The position numbers and the translations under genes are program-made. A stretch of 59,510 bases of DNA from the NCBI GenBank assembly GCA_013151015.1, contig JAADJA010000225.1, positions 1 through 59,510 of the forward strand, read 5' to 3'. The notes under the pieces were generated by a model, which had not been told where the DNA came from, made no database searches, and was given only the letters and a program-made list of their open reading frames with translations. The DNA comes from Chlorobiota bacterium (lineage in GTDB: Bacteria > Bacteroidota > Bacteroidia > Bacteroidales > JAADJA01). Below are positions 31,929-40,397 of this stretch, one piece after another. Every line of letters starts with the position of its first letter. The first letter of the stretch is position 1.

Positions 31929-34190
31929 ATGAAAACAAATCGCAGACAGTTTATAAAAATCTCGACACTCGGTACAGGAGCCATGGCATTAGGTTTAAGT
32001 TCGCTGAACTTCAACGGGATAAATGCAGCCTATGCAGCCGAAAAAAACGAAGCGGTAAGTGACGAAGACATGACACCTTACCCAACCTTTTGTGAGGTTT
32101 GCTTCTGGAAATGTGCCGCCTGGACCTATGTTGACAAAAAAGGGGAGATAAGGAAAATCATTGGCAATAAAGAAGACCCACATTGCAACGGCAGGTTATG
32201 CCCAAGGGGAACAGGCGGAATAGGCATGTACCACGATGAAGACCGTTTGAAAACACCATTGATAAGGGAAACCAAAGAAGATGGCACACAATACTACCGG
32301 GAGGCAAGCTGGGAAGAAGCCCTTGATCTGATCGCAAATAAAATGTCGAAGATCAAAAAGGAACATGGCCCCGAATGTGTCGCCCTGTTTTCACATGGCA
32401 CCGGGGGCAAACTCATGGGACATTTAGTAAAAGCCTTTGGTTCCCCAAATATTTCCGCACCATCTTTTGCACAATGCCGCGGCCCTCGCGAAGTTGCATT
32501 TACGGCAACTTACGGTGAAGATGTCCAATCACCGGAAAGAACCGATATAAGGGACACCAAATGCCTGGTACTTATCGGATCACACATTGGCGAAAACATG
32601 CACAACGGCCAAATACAGGAAATGTCGGATGCCATTGATAATGGGGCGACAATCATTACCGTTGATCCCAGGTTTTCAACGGCCGCTTCCCACTCAAAAT
32701 ATTGGCTGCCCATTAAGCCCGCAACTGACCTTGCTTTACTTCTTGCCTGGACACATGTTCTTATCGAAGAAGAATTATACGACAAAGAATATATCAAGAA
32801 ATACGCATTTGGTTTTGATGAACTCAAAGAACATGTAAAAGACAAAACCCCTGAATGGGCCTTTGGGATCACCACCATCGAACCTGAGATAATAAGGAGA
32901 ACGGCACGTGAAATGGCCTATGCCTCCCCTGCTGTTATTGTACACCCTGGAAGGCATGTTACCTGGTACGGTGACGATACCCAACGGTCAAGGGCAATTG
33001 CTATTCTCAATGCATTGTTGGGTTCCTGGGGAAGAAGGGGCGGGTTTTACGTTCCTGAAAAAGTCCATCTCCCAAAATACCCTTCACCGCCTTATCCCAA
33101 ACCTTCCCGAACCTGGAAAGATGCTTATCCTCCGGGAAAATACAATCTTGTTCACGAAGTGCTGTCAACAGGGATTTGCGATGCAACCATCCCAAACCCG
33201 GACATGGATTGCCAATTGAGGGCTTGGATTGTTTATGGGACCAACCTGCTCGCTTCATTGCCTGACCAAAAGAAAACACTCGAAGCAATCGACAACCTGG
33301 AATTCCTGGTCGTTATCGATACCATGCCCATGGACATTACGGCCTATGCCGATGTGGTCCTTCCCGAATGTACCTATCTGGAACGTTATGATTTTGTAAG
33401 GACTTCGCCCCATCGAGAACCGTTTTTAGCACTTCGGATGCCAGCGGCCAAACCGAAATATGACTCCAAACCCAATTGGTGGATAGCCAAGCAATTGGGA
33501 AGCCGTTTGGGACTGGATGAATATTTTAAATGGGATTCGATTGAGGAAGTATTGGACTGGCAATTGAAACACGTGGGTTCATCCCTTGAGGAAATGAAAC
33601 GCATTGGTGTGAAGAAGTTTGACAGGGAATATGACGATCTTTATTTCCTGCAAAACCTTGAAGATTTTGAATTCAACACCAATACAGGAAAGATAGAACT
33701 TTACTCTACCGAACTTGATTATGAAGGTTTTGATCCTTTGCCCAATTACACTTCACATCCAGAGCCCCCTGAAGGATTTTACCGGTTGAATTATGGCCGC
33801 GCACCCATGCATACATTCAGTCGTACGACAAATAACCCCAACCTCGATGATTTAATGGACGAGAACAAATTATGGGTCAATCCAAGGGTTGCGGAAATAT
33901 GGGGAATCGAAAATGGCCAAAAGGTTTGGTTGAAGAACCAGGATGATGTTGTTTCCTCCTTCCCGATAAAAGTTCGCGTTACCGAACGTATCCGTTGGGA
34001 TTCGGTTTACATGGTCCATGGTTTCGGCCACAAAGAAAGGCGATTGTCGCGTTCCTATGGAAAGGGCGCAAGCGATTCGGAACTGGTGACACATGTTATG
34101 ACCGACCCTGTGATGGGAGGTACCGGGATGAGAGGGAATTTTGTTACATTTTTATTAGAGAACCCTAAAAAAGAGGAGGTTGAGTCATGA
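31929..34190 (+). CDS. Tat-exported molybdopterin oxidoreductase, PsrA/PhsA-like catalytic subunit
   Basis: Tat motif NRRQFIKIS; 4Fe-4S CxxCxxxC...C; putative Mo-Cys ligand region SAPSFAQCRGPREVAF; adjacent FeS and NrfD subunits. Confidence 0.9.
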   Translation: MKTNRRQFIKISTLGTGAMALGLSSLNFNGINAAYAAEKNEAVSDEDMTPYPTFCEVCFWKCAAWTYVDKKGEIRKIIGNKEDPHCNGRLCPRGTGGIGMYHDEDRLKTPLIRETKEDGTQYYREASWEEALDLIANKMSKIKKEHGPECVALFSHGTGGKLMGHLVKAFGSPNISAPSFAQCRGPREVAFTATYGEDVQSPERTDIRDTKCLVLIGSHIGENMHNGQIQEMSDAIDNGATIITVDPRFSTAASHSKYWLPIKPATDLALLLAWTHVLIEEELYDKEYIKKYAFGFDELKEHVKDKTPEWAFGITTIEPEIIRRTAREMAYASPAVIVHPGRHVTWYGDDTQRSRAIAILNALLGSWGRRGGFYVPEKVHLPKYPSPPYPKPSRTWKDAYPPGKYNLVHEVLSTGICDATIPNPDMDCQLRAWIVYGTNLLASLPDQKKTLEAIDNLEFLVVIDTMPMDITAYADVVLPECTYLERYDFVRTSPHREPFLALRMPAAKPKYDSKPNWWIAKQLGSRLGLDEYFKWDSIEEVLDWQLKHVGSSLEEMKRIGVKKFDREYDDLYFLQNLEDFEFNTNTGKIELYSTELDYEGFDPLPNYTSHPEPPEGFYRLNYGRAPMHTFSRTTNNPNLDDLMDENKLWVNPRVAEIWGIENGQKVWLKNQDDVVSSFPIKVRVTERIRWDSVYMVHGFGHKERRLSRSYGKGASDSELVTHVMTDPVMGGTGMRGNFVTFLLENPKKEEVES

Positions 34191-34720
34191 GATATGCAAT
34201 GGCTATTGACACGAAGAAATGTGTAGGCTGTGGTGACTGTGTGGTTGCCTGCCAAACAGAAAACAATGTCCCTCACGGATATTGCAGGGACTGGATCGTT
34301 GAAAATGTGAGCGGAAGTTATCCAAACGTGGAAATCGAATTGCGCTCGGAACGTTGCAACCATTGCGATAATGCCCCTTGCGTAAGATGCTGCCCAACCG
34401 GGGCGAGCCATATTGTGGAGGGCGGAATTGTTATGGTAACCCACAACGAATGTATCGGTTGCGGCGCCTGTATTGAATCATGCCCTTATGATGCACGTTA
34501 TTCCCATCCCGAAGGATATGTTGACAAATGCACTTTCTGCAAACATAGGCTCGACAAGGGACAAAATCCGGCCTGCGTGGAAGTTTGCCCAACGAAATGT
34601 TTGCATTTTGGCGACCTCGACGATCCCAACAGTGATGTTTCCAAAGCACTGAAGGACAGGAAATGGAAGGTATTGGCCCCCGAAGCCGGAACAAAACCTC
34701 AGTTATATTTCCTGACTTGA
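34187..34720 (+). CDS. 4Fe-4S ferredoxin-type electron transfer subunit (PsrB-like)
   Basis: Multiple CxxCxxCxxxC motifs (CVGCGDCVVAC, CNHCDNAPCVRCCP, CIGCGACIESCPYDA); 4-nt overlap with preceding CDS. Confidence 0.95.
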   Translation: MRYAMAIDTKKCVGCGDCVVACQTENNVPHGYCRDWIVENVSGSYPNVEIELRSERCNHCDNAPCVRCCPTGASHIVEGGIVMVTHNECIGCGACIESCPYDARYSHPEGYVDKCTFCKHRLDKGQNPACVEVCPTKCLHFGDLDDPNSDVSKALKDRKWKVLAPEAGTKPQLYFLT

Positions 34721-34847
34721 TATTGAACCTAAATCGAAATAAAATGAAAATCCATATTTGCATCCGTCTGACCAATGTCCCGGGCATTTGCCCTGTACAA
34801 AGTAGTCTGCCGAATACAATCATTAACGAATTATTAAATTATAACAG

Positions 34848-35789
34848 ATGAAAGAAGAATTATTTGTAAGCGGACGCAATATCCCCAACATAGATCCTTA
34901 TCTGCACATCTGGCACTGGCAAATCCCATTGTATCTGTTCCTGGGCGGCCTTGCTGCCGGAATATTGTTTTTTGCGGGGTATTTTGTTGTGATGCAAAAA
35001 GAAAAGGATATGCAGGCAAGCGTAAAGTGGGCACCTTTGCTCGCCCCGTTTGCCCTGGCCCTCGGACTATTTGCTTTGTTCCTCGACCTGAAACACCAAC
35101 TCTACTTCTGGAGGTTATATACCACGGTAAGGTTTACATCGCCCATGTCGTGGGGTGCCTGGACATTGATGTTCATAACACCCCTTTCAGTGATATGGGT
35201 AGCTTCGTACATGAAAGAGATGTTCCCCAGGTGGGACTGGAAATTTGAAATCCTGAACAAGTTCGAGGCATTTGCCATCAAATACAGGAAAACTATGGCC
35301 TGGGCAATCATGGTCCTTGCCATTATCCTTGGGGTTTATACAGGGATTTTATTATCTGCCTTTAATGCCAGGCCATTGTGGAACACATCCATTTTAGGGC
35401 CTCTATTTTTGGTTTCAGGGCTTTCGACCGGACTGGCCTTCACAATGATGATATCGAAGAGCAAATACGAAAGAAAAGTTTTGGGCCGTATTGATTTAAT
35501 ATTGATTACAGTTGAGCTTTTCCTCATTACACATATGTTCATGGGGTTCCTTGCAGGATCGGCAGCAAAAATCGAAGCGGCAGAACTATTCCTCGGAGGT
35601 GATTTCACGGTTACTTTCTGGGCATTTGTTGTAGTACTTGGGCTCATTTTCCCTGCCATAATGGAAATCCTTGAACTAAGGGGCTATCATGTGCCCATCT
35701 GGATCCCTTCAACTTTTATCCTTATAGGAGGTTTGGTTTTCAGGTTTGTAATGGTAGAAGCCGGTCAGATAACACGATTTTTATATTGA
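34848..35789 (+). CDS. NrfD/PsrC-like integral membrane quinone-interacting subunit
   Basis: Multi-TM; WHWQIPLYLFLGGLAAGILFFAGY typical of NrfD/PsrC. Confidence 0.92.
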   Translation: MKEELFVSGRNIPNIDPYLHIWHWQIPLYLFLGGLAAGILFFAGYFVVMQKEKDMQASVKWAPLLAPFALALGLFALFLDLKHQLYFWRLYTTVRFTSPMSWGAWTLMFITPLSVIWVASYMKEMFPRWDWKFEILNKFEAFAIKYRKTMAWAIMVLAIILGVYTGILLSAFNARPLWNTSILGPLFLVSGLSTGLAFTMMISKSKYERKVLGRIDLILITVELFLITHMFMGFLAGSAAKIEAAELFLGGDFTVTFWAFVVVLGLIFPAIMEILELRGYHVPIWIPSTFILIGGLVFRFVMVEAGQITRFLY

Positions 35790-35863
35790 CAAAAAATTAA
35801 TAAATGAACTATCCATATTTGGTTTAAGCATGCAAAACAATAAAAGGAAACCTTTGTGTCTTT

Positions 35864-35900
35864 AAACCCCCGCCTGCCAAAGTTTACAGCGGGCAGGTTT
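35864..35900. repeat. GC-rich palindromic repeat, copy 2 (cccgcctgccaaagtttacagcgggcagg)
   Basis: Shares cccgcctgcc...gggcagg core with 9318-9351. Confidence 0.5.
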
Positions 35901-35919
35901 GTGATGAAAATTCAAAAAA

Positions 35920-36453
35920 ATGAAAAAGCATAAAATAAAAAATTACCCGCATTACATCAACCCTTATTTTGGAGGTTTGTTATTGGGCATACTTATTATA
36001 ATTACAGTTTACATTACCGGACGTGGACTGGGTGCCAGTGGAGCTGTAAAAAGTGCGGTCGTAACATCGGTTGATGTGGTATCGTCGAGCCATGCCGAAG
36101 AGAGTGCCTTTTATAGCAAATTCATAAGCGACGACCATTCCCCCATGTATAACTGGCTGGTTTTTGAATCCTTTGGGATATTTATCGGGGGGTTATTGTC
36201 AGGTGCCATATTTGGCAGGATAAAAAAATTCAGGGTCGAACACTCACCAAAAATAACAAGTAAGACAAGATTGATCGGAGCGGCGGTCGGGGGCATCCTT
36301 TTTGGGTTTGGAAGCCAATTTGGAAGAGGTTGCACAAGTGGGGCAGCATTGAGCGGAACCGCCACATTTTCATTCGGTGGGATGATTGTTATGTTTGGGA
36401 TATTTGGGACGGGTTATGCCGTCGCCTATTTTTTCAGGAAACTTTGGATTTAA
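35920..36453 (+). CDS. YeeE/YedE (DUF395) half-size sulfur transporter-like protein, first partner
   Basis: GFGSQFGRGCTSGAALSGTATFSFGGMIVMFGIFGTGY. Confidence 0.87.
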   Translation: MKKHKIKNYPHYINPYFGGLLLGILIIITVYITGRGLGASGAVKSAVVTSVDVVSSSHAEESAFYSKFISDDHSPMYNWLVFESFGIFIGGLLSGAIFGRIKKFRVEHSPKITSKTRLIGAAVGGILFGFGSQFGRGCTSGAALSGTATFSFGGMIVMFGIFGTGYAVAYFFRKLWI

Positions 36454-36487
36454 TTTTTGATTATTCACATTTAAAAACATAGATATA

Positions 36488-37090
36488 ATGGGACCTTTAA
36501 TTCCTAATGGCATATTGACCGGAAACTGGGACTTCGTAATAGCCCTGCTTCTCGGTATTGCTTTTGGCTTTGTGCTGGAAGCTTCAGGCTTTTCTTCTTC
36601 AAGAAACCTTGCCGGAGTTTTTTATGGATATAACTTTGTTGTGCTCCGAGTATTCTTTACCGCAGTAATTGTAGCGATGGTAGGCCTTCTCTATTTTGAT
36701 TACTTCGGTTGGCTCGAAATGGACAAAATATTTATTCTGCCAACCTATCTCACACCTATGATAACAGGAAGTGTTATAATGGGGTTTGGGTTTATAATAG
36801 GGGGGTTTTGCCCGGGCACCAGCTATACGGCCATTGCCATTGGCAAACTCGATGCCCTTGTATTTACAGGTGGGCTTTTCCTTGGAATCTTTTTGTTTTC
36901 CGAGGCTTTTCCCCTATTTCAGGATTTTTATTATAGCGGGGACATGGGTTCGCCAACAATAACAGATATGCTTGGCATTTCGGCGCAATGGATTGCGTTT
37001 GCATTTGTGGTTATCGCCCTTGCAGCTTTCTGGATAACCTGGGTCATTGAAAAACGAGTTAGAAAAAACATTACACCCTATAAATTCTAA
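36488..37090 (+). CDS. YeeE/YedE (DUF395) half-size sulfur transporter-like protein, second partner
   Basis: GFGFIIGGFCPGTSYTAIAIGKLDALVFTGGLFLGIFLFSE. Confidence 0.87.
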   Translation: MGPLIPNGILTGNWDFVIALLLGIAFGFVLEASGFSSSRNLAGVFYGYNFVVLRVFFTAVIVAMVGLLYFDYFGWLEMDKIFILPTYLTPMITGSVIMGFGFIIGGFCPGTSYTAIAIGKLDALVFTGGLFLGIFLFSEAFPLFQDFYYSGDMGSPTITDMLGISAQWIAFAFVVIALAAFWITWVIEKRVRKNITPYKF

Positions 37091-37095
37091 GAATC

Positions 37096-37713
37096 ATGAA
37101 CAAAAATTATATTATCCTCACTGCTTTGATGATTGTTCTTGCCGGTGGATTGTTAATAGTTCCTGAACGACAAAAGTACCAGCAAATAGACCCGGATGAA
37201 CTATTATGGGAGATTATCCAGCCCACACGCTACGTAAGTACCGATAAGGTGGCCCAGTTAATCATTGAGGGTGACCCAAGCCTCGAACTGGTCGATGTAA
37301 GGCCTGCTGCAGATTATGAAAAATTTTCACTGCCCAAATCCATCAATATCCCTCTCGATAGTTTGCTGCAAGAATCCTATCAGGACTATCTTGGAATAGA
37401 TGGGATGAAAGTTTTGTTTTTCTCAAATGACGATATCAAGGCCGATCAGGCATGGGTACTTGCCAAAAGACTTGGGTACGACAATATATATGTCATGAAA
37501 GGGGGTCTTAACTGTTGGATAAGAACGGTAATCCAACCAAAAAAACCTTCAACTGACTCTCCTTCAACAGAGTTCGCCTTGTATGATTTCAGGAAAGGCG
37601 CCCAGATGTATTTTACCGGTGCCAAAACAGAAACATCCGGGAAGTCATCAAACAAAAAAGCGGTAAAGATTCAAAGGAAAAAGAAAAAAACAGCTGCTTC
37701 GGGCGGTTGTTAA
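37096..37713 (+). CDS. Membrane-anchored degenerate rhodanese-like protein with C-terminal RKKKKTAASGGC
   Basis: N-terminal TM; rhodanese fold residues (LELVDVRPAADYEKFSLPKSINIPLDSL...YDNIYVMKGGLNCW); active-site loop VLFFSNDDIKADQ lacks Cys. Confidence 0.85.
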   Translation: MNKNYIILTALMIVLAGGLLIVPERQKYQQIDPDELLWEIIQPTRYVSTDKVAQLIIEGDPSLELVDVRPAADYEKFSLPKSINIPLDSLLQESYQDYLGIDGMKVLFFSNDDIKADQAWVLAKRLGYDNIYVMKGGLNCWIRTVIQPKKPSTDSPSTEFALYDFRKGAQMYFTGAKTETSGKSSNKKAVKIQRKKKKTAASGGC

Positions 37714-37800
37714 GGAAACAAGGGTTCAAGGAATTCGAATCATACTTCTGACACGTTTTGCAAGAAAAAACAAAATCCAAAGTTCAAAAAGACAAACATT

Positions 37801-38442
37801 ATGCATGTACATGAATTAAACCCGAAAAAATCAATTATAACCCTTTCCATATTTTTTATCATCATCGTGGTTGGGTTCATAACTTTGAAAACCCCTTGGT
37901 TAACCTATAAACAAGTTCCTGAGCAAACTTTACGGATGATTTCGGAAAAGGGAAATTGCCTTTATCCATATGAGCTGGCCAGCTTTGTGGCCGGAACCGA
38001 TGACAATATCGTGTTAATTGACATCAGGGACAAGTTTACTTACAGCAGAGGCCATATACCGGGGGCGATCAACATTTCGGCCTATGATCTCACGAGGAAA
38101 GAAGAAATCAAACAACTCAAGGAGTTTAAAGATAAAGGTGTTTCTGTTGTCCTCTATGGCGATAATCAATTACAGGCAAATGGCCCCTGGATGCTTTTTA
38201 GGCAAATTGGTTATGATAACGTAAAAGTACTGGCCGGTGGATACGACTATTACAAAATGCACAAAGATAACCTGGCCGATACTGAAAATGACGATTCTTA
38301 TTTTAAGGGAACGGCAGACTTTGATTATGCAAAAGTTGCAGGAAGTACAGTTTCAACTTCAACAACCACGAACACAGATGCTAAAAAACCTGTTACGGTC
38401 CGCCGGAAGAAGAAAAAGGCAGCTGCATCAGGAGGATGCTAA
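37801..38442 (+). CDS. Membrane-anchored degenerate rhodanese-like protein with C-terminal RKKKKAAASGGC
   Basis: N-terminal TM; IVLIDIRDKFTYSRGHIPGAINISAYDL...YDNVKVLAGGYDYY; active-site loop VVLYGDNQLQA lacks Cys. Confidence 0.87.
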   Translation: MHVHELNPKKSIITLSIFFIIIVVGFITLKTPWLTYKQVPEQTLRMISEKGNCLYPYELASFVAGTDDNIVLIDIRDKFTYSRGHIPGAINISAYDLTRKEEIKQLKEFKDKGVSVVLYGDNQLQANGPWMLFRQIGYDNVKVLAGGYDYYKMHKDNLADTENDDSYFKGTADFDYAKVAGSTVSTSTTTNTDAKKPVTVRRKKKKAAASGGC

Positions 38443-38471
38443 TTTATTATTCGATCAAAATGACATATTCG

Positions 38472-38505
38472 AACGGTTAATGAAAAATACATTAACCGTT
38501 TTTTT
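38472..38505 (+). terminator. Rho-independent-type terminator after the sulfur island
   Basis: aacggttaat-N9-attaaccgtt followed by ttttt. Confidence 0.8.
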
Positions 38506-38779: not shown

Positions 38780-39553
38780 ATGAAAAACGAAAATGGAAAT
38801 ATTAAAATTTTAGATAAGGCTAAAGCCATCCTGATTACGGTTATGGTTTTATTTCTATTTCAATCAATTTCCTTTGCACAGTACGACAGACAAAAATATA
38901 AGTGGTCCAACCTATTAAAACATTGGTCAATAGGAACATCTATTGGTCAAACTTCCTTTTATGGCGATGTAAGTTTATACGACAATGAACTTTCGGACAA
39001 ACTGTCAAAAGAAGGTTCCTGGTCTAATGGATTTAAACTTGCAAGACAGTTGACCCCGGTGATCGGCCTTCAGGGACAATTGCTTTTGGGAAAACTCAAA
39101 GGAAAGAATTCAGTATCCAATTTCGAAGCCAACATCAAGCAGGTATCGGTGAATTTCACATTAAATTTTGTAAACCTGCTTTTACCTGGAAACGATTCAC
39201 GCTTTTTTATTTTGGCAAAAATCGGCTTGGGTGAATATGTTTTCGACTCAAGGTTGATGTTCAATGACCCCAATAAGGCAGATATTACCATTAACCCTAA
39301 AACACCTGAGTTTTTGTTCTTGTTGGGCCCGGCAATCTATTACAAAATCAGCAACTCTTTTGATGTAAATGCTGATTTAGATGTACAGTGGGCCAACAAT
39401 GACAAACTGGACGGAACAACCAACAACAATAAAGATGATGATTATTACACTTTTTTATCGGTTGGGGTAACTTATAAAATAAACAACATAAACCGGTCAG
39501 CAAGGGGATTTCGCCATACTGGGGGAAGATTCTCATTGATAAAACGAAGATAG
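38780..39553 (+). CDS. Outer-membrane beta-barrel-like protein, paralog 1
   Basis: Signal peptide; alternating beta-strand pattern; GTSIGQTSFYGDVSLYDNELSDKLSKE motif shared with next CDS. Confidence 0.7.
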   Translation: MKNENGNIKILDKAKAILITVMVLFLFQSISFAQYDRQKYKWSNLLKHWSIGTSIGQTSFYGDVSLYDNELSDKLSKEGSWSNGFKLARQLTPVIGLQGQLLLGKLKGKNSVSNFEANIKQVSVNFTLNFVNLLLPGNDSRFFILAKIGLGEYVFDSRLMFNDPNKADITINPKTPEFLFLLGPAIYYKISNSFDVNADLDVQWANNDKLDGTTNNNKDDDYYTFLSVGVTYKINNINRSARGFRHTGGRFSLIKRR

Positions 39554-39632
39554 TTTACGGAAAGCACAATGTGCAATCCATTTAAATAAAAGCAAATTAG
39601 TCCTATTCAATACGAACATAAAACTTATAACA

Positions 39633-40397
39633 GTGAAAAAGCAAATCAAGGTATTACTCGCAGTAGTTGTCTTTACGACACTTGTTATTCCTGATACTAC
39701 ATCGGCCCAGGGTTGGGGAGGAAGATGGAAGCCTGGCTTTTGGGACATGTGGTCAATAAACATCAATGCAGGCCAAACATCCTTTTTTGGTGATTTAAGC
39801 CTTTATGACTCTGATATTATGGGAAAGCTCACCAACGAAAGCGGTTTGGCATACGGAGGTATTTTTTCCAAGCATTTTAGCGACAAGTTCAGTATGGGTG
39901 GGCAATTATTGTTTGGCAAGTTAAAAGGGGAGAATTCAAGTGCAACTTTTAATGCCGATGTAATGGAATATAACTTTCATGGTAAGGTAAACCTGGTAAA
40001 CCTAATTTTTCCCGAAAACTTAACAAACCTTGATTTTACCATGTACGCAGGTATCGGGCAATTCCGGTTTAAAAGTATCCAGGTAAACAAAAAGGAGGGA
40101 ACGACTTCCATAGAAGACACCGGCACGCCCGAATTTGTTTACTTTTTTGGAATGGGGCTGGATTATAAGATAACCGACAGGCTTGGGGTGAATATGGACA
40201 TGTCGATCCGCCAGGCCCAAAACGACAAGCTCGATGACCTAAAGAAAAACGATAATAATGATTATTATAGCTACATAAGTGTAGGGGTAACCTATTACAT
40301 CGAAAGCCTGTTTGGCGGAGGTGGCAAGAAAAAAGGCGGAAGCTTTGGAAGAAGCAGCCGTGGAGGTGGAAGGATGCCCATGATGAGAAGGCGGTAA
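39633..40397 (+). CDS. Outer-membrane beta-barrel-like protein, paralog 2, with Gly/Arg-rich basic C-terminal tail (GTG start)
   Basis: INAGQTSFFGDLSLYDSDIMGKLTNESG; tail GGGGKKKGGSFGRSSRGGGRMPMMRRR. Confidence 0.7.
   Translation: MKKQIKVLLAVVVFTTLVIPDTTSAQGWGGRWKPGFWDMWSININAGQTSFFGDLSLYDSDIMGKLTNESGLAYGGIFSKHFSDKFSMGGQLLFGKLKGENSSATFNADVMEYNFHGKVNLVNLIFPENLTNLDFTMYAGIGQFRFKSIQVNKKEGTTSIEDTGTPEFVYFFGMGLDYKITDRLGVNMDMSIRQAQNDKLDDLKKNDNNDYYSYISVGVTYYIESLFGGGGKKKGGSFGRSSRGGGRMPMMRRR

Follow-up and report, generated by a model that had tools for sequence, protein, structure and literature searches.

What is the function of a polysulfide reductase-like enzyme whose genes are followed by those of a split YeeE protein and of two rhodaneses that have lost their catalytic cysteine? 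The question is raised by an operon of a Chlorobiota bacterium (assembly GCA_013151015.1, contig JAADJA010000225.1; the whole stretch analysed, 59,510 nucleotides long, is hereafter called the window). The operon (positions 31929-38442) is made of seven genes, all on the plus strand: psrA, psrB and psrC, two genes encoding half-size YeeE proteins (YeeE1 and YeeE2) and two encoding rhodanese-family proteins with Gly-Gly-Cys tails (Rho1 and Rho2). Bacteroidota and Neomarinimicrobiota possessing psr genes are often classed as reducers of sulfur or polysulfide, and the direction in which their enzymes work is openly disputed (PMC8359478). As argued below, Rho1 and Rho2 would probably be membrane-tethered carriers of sulfane sulfur that swing an arm, in the manner of SoxY, between a quinone-linked enzyme acting on S-S bonds and the split YeeE channel.

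The linkage of these genes was examined in two ways. A YeeE2 alignment, blind to Psr and rhodanese, was used to scan 85,000 species genomes and retrieved 80 named loci, and a phylum survey was made on an even sample of 297 genomes. In 65 of the 80 loci, psr genes and rhodanese genes are found in the order psrA-psrB-psrC-yeeE1-yeeE2-rho1(-rho2). Ten loci contain a YeeE2::rhodanese fusion without psr genes, and the remaining five lie at contig ends. The hosts include Bacteroidales, Marinilabiliales, Prolixibacteraceae, Flavobacteriaceae (Maribacter, Yeosuana, Lutibacter), Ignavibacteria/Chlorobiota and Neomarinimicrobiota. In the survey, this YeeE2 occurs in 50 of the 297 genomes, with 53 copies. 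Twenty-two copies are located 2.0-2.6 kb downstream of psrA and 25 are located 0.6-1.7 kb downstream of the gene for an octaheme tetrathionate reductase-type cytochrome; contig ends separate one copy from its psrA, and neither partner accompanies the other five. The preliminary description of this DNA had associated the Mo enzyme with YeeE and rhodanese genes. Within the clade this linkage holds, since every PsrA at least 50% identical to that of the window co-occurs with this YeeE2 (23 of 23), as against none of the 11 PsrA proteins that are 44-46% identical. Because dozens of genomes share the gene order and a terminal cysteine is present in every intact rhodanese of the survey, the operon is not a chance assembly.

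The rhodaneses themselves carry the most distinctive signature. The tails of Rho1 and Rho2 are nearly identical (KKKK-T/A-AASGGC). Among sequences chosen by homology and not by their tails, the terminal cysteine is present in 66 of 66 Rho1 homologues, 53 of 54 Rho2 homologues and 9 of the 10 fused YeeE2::rhodanese proteins. The canonical cysteine is retained in a single Rho1 homologue, a serine occupying the position in 64 of the 66, and it is absent from all 54 Rho2 homologues, most of which have a glycine there, as well as from the 10 fusions, where alanine, glycine or serine replaces it. A rhodanese lipoprotein family (f7) encoded in some of the same loci has the canonical cysteine in 19 of 19 members. 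The terminal cysteine is the sole cysteine of about half of the Rho1 proteins and of more than half of the Rho2 proteins. In the survey, the 52 intact rhodaneses adjoining or fused to YeeE2 all end in cysteine (last residue in 47, penultimate in 5), and the active-site cysteine is found in two of them, a count that takes in the proteins ending in cysteine, that is, all except the frameshifted one of locus L183. The residues preceding the terminal cysteine differ (GGC, EGC, MGC, DGC and one QC); thus, the cysteine itself is what is conserved in the tail. Among the 1805 complete open reading frames of at least 100 residues in the 80 named loci, all those ending in GGC or GGCG match the window queries or belong to a rhodanese family. 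Apparent deviations were considered and set aside. In L183, the frameshift splits the gene and KKKKREGC lies downstream in another frame; L065 ends short and L096 has an ambiguous base, so that neither was counted as a tail. Replacement of the arm cysteine by selenocysteine was also rejected, as no convincing GG-TGA tail was seen in any locus.

From profile searches and, for Rho1, from an AlphaFold2 model, Rho1 and Rho2 are predicted to have the rhodanese fold. The Rho1 model (mean predicted local distance difference test, pLDDT, of 88) shows an N-terminal helix (residues 3-21), a confident rhodanese head and a low-pLDDT arm (residues 178-205, approximately). It retrieves ordinary rhodaneses in Foldseek, and a fold search of viral structures gave nothing beyond such matches. 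Rhodanese is the sole Pfam family found in Rho1 and Rho2; no SoxY domain was detected there. Over the 27 residues that precede GGC, the net charge ranges from -3 to +14 (median +4), and disorder-promoting residues abound. As far as their sequences indicate, both proteins fall outside the canonical catalytic rhodaneses, for they have no cysteine in the loop after the central strand. The preliminary description spoke of GGC-tailed rhodaneses. Tails and domains are indeed there, and the word rhodanese needs qualification because the active-site cysteine has given way to serine or glycine, the cysteine of the C-terminal arm alone being invariably kept.

The two YeeE proteins form a complementary pair. 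Both are half-size and contain a cysteine motif, as had been noted, and they correspond to one C-terminal and one N-terminal half of PF04143 with a single cysteine each (Table 1), which is the arrangement of PmpA and PmpB. The cysteine of YeeE2 is invariant in 18 homologues, and YeeE1 is kept beside YeeE2 in most loci. PmpA and PmpB have been proposed to form a heterodimer equivalent to full YeeE, their cysteines corresponding to the Cys91 and Cys293 positions of TsuA, where both are indispensable (PMC11582611). Thus, half-size YeeE proteins as such are already known. The present pair shares with PmpA/PmpB the association of an N-half with a C-half and the one conserved cysteine per protein, but it is accompanied by a terminal-cysteine rhodanese, often fused, and in most loci by a respiratory enzyme of S-S chemistry. 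The organism also encodes a full-length TsuA-like YeeE (L149:4832-5848, G000:C55), next to a transporter and a helicase; in the stretch read, TusA is not among its neighbours.

The redox enzyme associated with this pair is not always Psr. About half of the surveyed cases have the rhodanese and the YeeE half in one fused protein, and an octaheme cytochrome in place of Psr. The genes upstream of the fused type encode this cytochrome (TIGR04315, 594 bits for a cut-off of 375) and a cytochrome b561. In L044 and L049, octaheme cytochrome and b561 genes directly precede the psrA operon. The octaheme cytochrome family was detected in 41 genomes of the phylum; the window's own genome is not among them. 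Since either octaheme/b561 or psr genes precede the same pair, the proposed carrier and channel are shared and the quinone-linked S-S redox enzyme is exchangeable. The exchangeable enzyme and the fusion are the strongest hints that the arm may serve both partners. Membrane-tethered carriers passing sulfur between the periplasmic Mo enzyme and YeeE had already been proposed in the preliminary description; this idea fits all the findings, except that the tie to Psr has to be loosened in view of the octaheme cytochrome. The octaheme loci are an unstudied sister system of the psr operon; in L082, L085, L101, L109, L115, L117, L124-L129, L138 and L139, the cytochrome gene of the octaheme tetrathionate reductase family and, mostly, that of b561 are followed by YeeE1 and then by the YeeE2::rhodanese-GGC fusion. 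A third context is seen in L130, L132, L176 and L182, where YeeE2 and a downstream rhodanese ending in VRMGC or MRMGC occur with neither psr nor octaheme cytochrome genes; L130 and L132 also encode a secreted rhodanese upstream of YeeE2.

The Mo subunit, as placed by sequence, belongs to the Psr/Phs clade and has PsrB- and NrfD-type partners. Its closest solved structure, Thermus PsrA (2vpw), aligns with it from end to end (E=9e-201); acetylene hydratase, formate dehydrogenases and ArrA are about 500 bits behind. The top NCBIfam model is PhsA (476 bits, under the equivalog cut-off of 694), far above formate dehydrogenase (Fdh, 257), DmsA/YnfE (245), ArrA (150) and NapA (86). When 35 proteins were placed in a maximum-likelihood tree, the window PsrA, together with its homologues, joined Thermus PsrA (support 99/98) and next plasmid PhsA (97/94). 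The Dms, Fdh, Nap and Nar-type rows, and the three other Mo enzymes of the same genome, fall apart from this group; the ArrA and TtrA families were compared by profile scores. An Arr, Nap, Dms or Fdh identity was rejected on these scores and on the tree, and the sulfur-family assignment of the preliminary description is borne out. As Phs, Psr and Sre are not distinguishable by sequence (PMC8359478), the substrate of the window PsrA cannot be read from its sequence. In a search of a plasmid collection, PsrA gave distant matches of PhsA, Fdh and Dms type only, and YeeE2-Rho1 gave none. The enzyme resembles PsrABC and PhsABC in its catalytic, Fe-S and NrfD subunits, with the domains of the family, and in its clade; it differs in its constant linkage to a split YeeE and to arm-bearing rhodaneses.

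Considering these properties, the operon may be envisaged as a periplasmic unit for the handling of sulfane sulfur. PsrABC would form or cleave S-S bonds at the Mo site and exchange two electrons with menaquinone. The rhodanese fold of Rho1 and Rho2 would act as a docking or binding head devoid of a catalytic cysteine of its own, and the tether would hold the carrier at the membrane. The terminal cysteine would bear sulfur as a persulfide or an S-thiosulfonate, and the arm would shuttle between the Mo site and the outer opening of a channel formed by YeeE1 and YeeE2 as a PmpAB-type heterodimer, through which sulfur would cross the membrane. The basic character of the arm may favour anionic sulfur species. 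The net direction would most likely be oxidative: the arm would be charged with sulfide or sulfane sulfur, quinone would receive the electrons and imported sulfur would be handed to a cytoplasmic relay of the DsrE2/DsrC type. SoxY carries sulfur on the cysteine of a C-terminal GGCGG arm (PMC6067878), the passage of sulfur from this cysteine to the SoxT channel has been called conceivable (PMC11582611), and the ergothioneine synthase MES requires its penultimate Cys1135 to deliver sulfur to a Mo-pterin site (PMC9516567). In a wider form, proposed here tentatively and nearly balanced between acceptance and doubt, the rhodanese-fold carriers would have relocated their reactive cysteine from the loop to a C-terminal arm independently of SoxY. 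Paired or fused with a split YeeE, they would work with at least two quinone-linked S-S enzymes that are unrelated to each other (PsrABC; octaheme cytochrome with b561) and would provide a route of sulfur oxidation and import in Bacteroidota, Ignavibacteria and Neomarinimicrobiota.

The direction deserves discussion. Next to the operon, some genomes have genes for a type III sulfide:quinone oxidoreductase (SQR), DUF1641, TusE/DsrC, DsrE2, a Crp/Fnr regulator, a Rieske protein and a multiheme cytochrome. The same gene set is present in the window's own genome, unlinked to the operon, on contig C186 (L148, G000:C186:6000-20000), where the SQR matches NF049943, TusE/DsrC has the penultimate cysteine only and the multiheme c part is fused to a cytochrome b in a 922-residue protein. 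Thus, the earlier remark that no Dsr gene lies nearby is correct for the window and does not extend to the genome. A NapA-like enzyme, with full support in the Mo-enzyme tree, and another reading as NarG are encoded as well, which makes an acceptor for sulfur oxidation plausible. Judging from its genes, the own-genome SQR-DsrC-DsrE2 module leans towards the oxidation of sulfide or sulfane sulfur, and oxidation is ranked somewhat ahead of reduction.

Several points weigh against the oxidative carrier scheme. PsrABC is better known as a reductase. In five Neomarinimicrobiota loci (L079, L080, L083, L092 and L116), which have a single rhodanese, the operon stands beside genes read as hypA, B, C, D, E and F, for hydrogenase maturation. 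In the phylum survey, DsrE2 is found in 8 of the 50 genomes with this YeeE2 versus 22 of the 247 without it, which is not significant (p=0.11), so that the oxidative direction relies on local clusters and lifestyle and is held with moderate confidence. In the AlphaFold2 model of the fusion, the YeeE part is weak (mean pLDDT 66), so that its topology is not established by the model. Finally, direct cysteine-to-cysteine transfer along the YeeE channel has been doubted, as the cysteines are about 7 Å apart (PMC11582611).

The first two of these points suit the respiration of polysulfide or thiosulfate, in which arm sulfur would pass to PsrA and leave as sulfide, YeeE1-YeeE2 moving sulfur or thiosulfate for storage, supply or removal. 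Sud of Wolinella offers a model here, being a rhodanese-type protein thought to give polysulfide sulfur to Psr, with the difference that Sud uses the canonical loop cysteine, whereas Rho1 and Rho2 have lost it and carry a cysteine on the tail. Moreover, those members of the Psr/Phs clade that have been characterised act as reductases, and Thermus PsrA is the closest to that of the window. However, the operon is present in Maribacter and Yeosuana, Flavobacteriaceae usually described as aerobic, and the type III SQR that adjoins it in some genomes is also encoded in its own. The psr genes of Bacteroidetes and Marinimicrobia have mostly been interpreted as reductive, in a review that nonetheless warns against presuming direction in these lineages (PMC8359478). 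A reductive function is a possibility to be kept in mind, if a less likely one.

A different role for the tail may also be imagined. GGC would be an assembly, metal-binding or disulfide tether fixing an inactive rhodanese to YeeE or PsrA, the domain being a structural or sensory adaptor. Loss of the canonical cysteine and the YeeE2::rhodanese fusion are compatible with a structural role. Yet the fused form retains arm and terminal cysteine, though a tether to YeeE would no longer be needed, and the cysteine stays constant after residues that differ (GG, EG, MG, DG), as would be expected of a reactive residue. This explanation is unlikely.

Least of all can the metabolism of Se, Te or As oxyanions be favoured, with a Mo enzyme reducing selenite or tellurite and cysteine arms binding Se or Te. 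In its favour, a multiheme cytochrome gene is divergent from psrA in many loci, and its product is similar to ExtM, known from selenite/tellurite operons; in the own genome, the N-terminal part of this cytochrome is similar to ExtP, and YedF is encoded there too, with neighbours reading as SelD, SelB and SelA. However, the ExtM match amounts to 204-236 bits against a cut-off of 800, and the matches with ExtH and YedE-selenium are marginal. The score with ArrA is 150 bits for this PsrA and 1013 for a separate ArrA-like enzyme of the genome. The partner genes found elsewhere (SQR, DsrC, DsrE2, octaheme tetrathionate reductase family) are related to sulfur. The YedF group (L151, G000:C101:18000-26000) suggests that the organism probably makes selenoproteins. 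The ArrA-like enzyme (L150, G000:C111:3000-14000; ArrA cut-off 1600 bits) is accompanied by an Fe-S subunit and a chaperone of the nitrate reductase delta/TorD type, and may be a separate arsenate or related respiratory enzyme.

Comparison with known systems helps to delimit what would be new in the carrier mechanism. The SoxYZ-SoxT pair of Sox/sHdr sulfur oxidisers likewise combines a periplasmic, substrate-carrying cysteine on a glycine-containing C-terminal arm with a sulfur importer of the YeeE family. Here, in contrast, a degenerate rhodanese, itself anchored in the membrane, forms the head, YeeE is split into PmpA and PmpB halves, and the redox partner is PsrABC or the octaheme cytochrome instead of SoxXAB/SoxCD. 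The glycine-flanked terminal cysteine on a mobile arm would thus resemble SoxY by analogy of function and not by homology. The YTD cluster of sulfur disproportionators (YedE, TusA, DsrE and hypothetical proteins) also groups YeeE/YedE with sulfurtransferases (PMC12998232), while the window has rhodanese arms and Psr, replaced elsewhere by the octaheme cytochrome. Among the open reading frames of the window, no tusA or dsrE stands beside the operon, which places it outside the YTD type; the TusA match of the genome is YedF, and it lies on another contig, as does DsrE2. In MES, a penultimate C-terminal cysteine is needed for sulfur delivery to a metallopterin site of the dimethyl sulfoxide (DMSO) reductase family, but MES is a biosynthetic, single polypeptide with a pyridoxal phosphate-dependent desulfurase module (PMC9516567). 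In limited searches of open-access papers, Psr, YeeE, PmpAB and rhodanese were seen to be treated separately, and no account of GGC-tailed or cysteine-relocated rhodaneses with YeeE was found, an absence that is not proof. An arm-cysteine carrier acting with a YeeE channel is already known, and the carrier family described here appears to be undescribed. If the mechanism is true, it would be a second, unrelated answer to the swinging-arm problem solved by SoxY. It would give these psr genes a concrete, testable mechanism, with a PmpB-type YeeE and a rhodanese ending in cysteine as marker, and it bears on the passage of sulfane sulfur through the inner membrane, still debated for YeeE/SoxT.

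The layout of the operon agrees with the preliminary description: the seven open reading frames have the coordinates and strand given there, the claimed domains were recovered by profile searches, and the twin-arginine signal of PsrA is seen in its start (TNRRQFIK). The intergenic gaps are -4, 127, 130, 34, 5 and 87 bp. A probable terminator after the last gene was also recovered (Table 1), although terminator-like sites in the region are overall no more numerous than in shuffled sequences.

Table 1. Genes and terminator of the operon, with window coordinates.
Feature	Coordinates	Strand	Basis
PsrA/PhsA-type catalytic subunit with Mo-bis(molybdopterin guanine dinucleotide) (Mo-bisMGD), 753 aa, twin-arginine signal	31929..34190	+	PF00384/PF01568/PF04879; Thermus PsrA 2vpw; NCBIfam PhsA; tree
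PsrB-type ferredoxin-like [4Fe-4S] electron-transfer subunit, 177 aa	34187..34720	+	Fer4_11 and further Fer4 models (dicluster)
PsrC/NrfD-type quinone-interacting membrane anchor, 313 aa	34848..35789	+	PF03916 E=3e-48; 2vpw_C
YeeE1, half-size YeeE/YedE, PmpA-type (C-terminal half), single Cys138 in GRGCTSG	35920..36453	+	PF04143 profile positions 177-308
YeeE2, half-size YeeE/YedE, PmpB-type (N-terminal half), single Cys108 in GGFCPGTS	36488..37090	+	PF04143 profile positions 4-159
Rho1, N-terminal transmembrane anchor, rhodanese domain (Ser replaces catalytic Cys), disordered arm ending GGC	37096..37713	+	PF00581; AlphaFold2
Rho2, second tethered rhodanese (Gly replaces catalytic Cys), arm ending GGC	37801..38442	+	PF00581
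Probable intrinsic terminator of the operon	38471..38501	+	12-pair stem, then T run

Two further observations concern the outer membrane. Directly 3' of the terminator, the window contains two tandem genes for PorG-like outer-membrane beta-barrels (38780-40397), the first of which matches T9SS_PorG weakly. In L056, L059, L061, L062, L076, L089 and L095, a group made of a rhodanese lipoprotein, an outer-membrane porin and, in some cases, a second rhodanese is encoded near the psr operon, and is possibly a route of sulfur uptake through the outer membrane.

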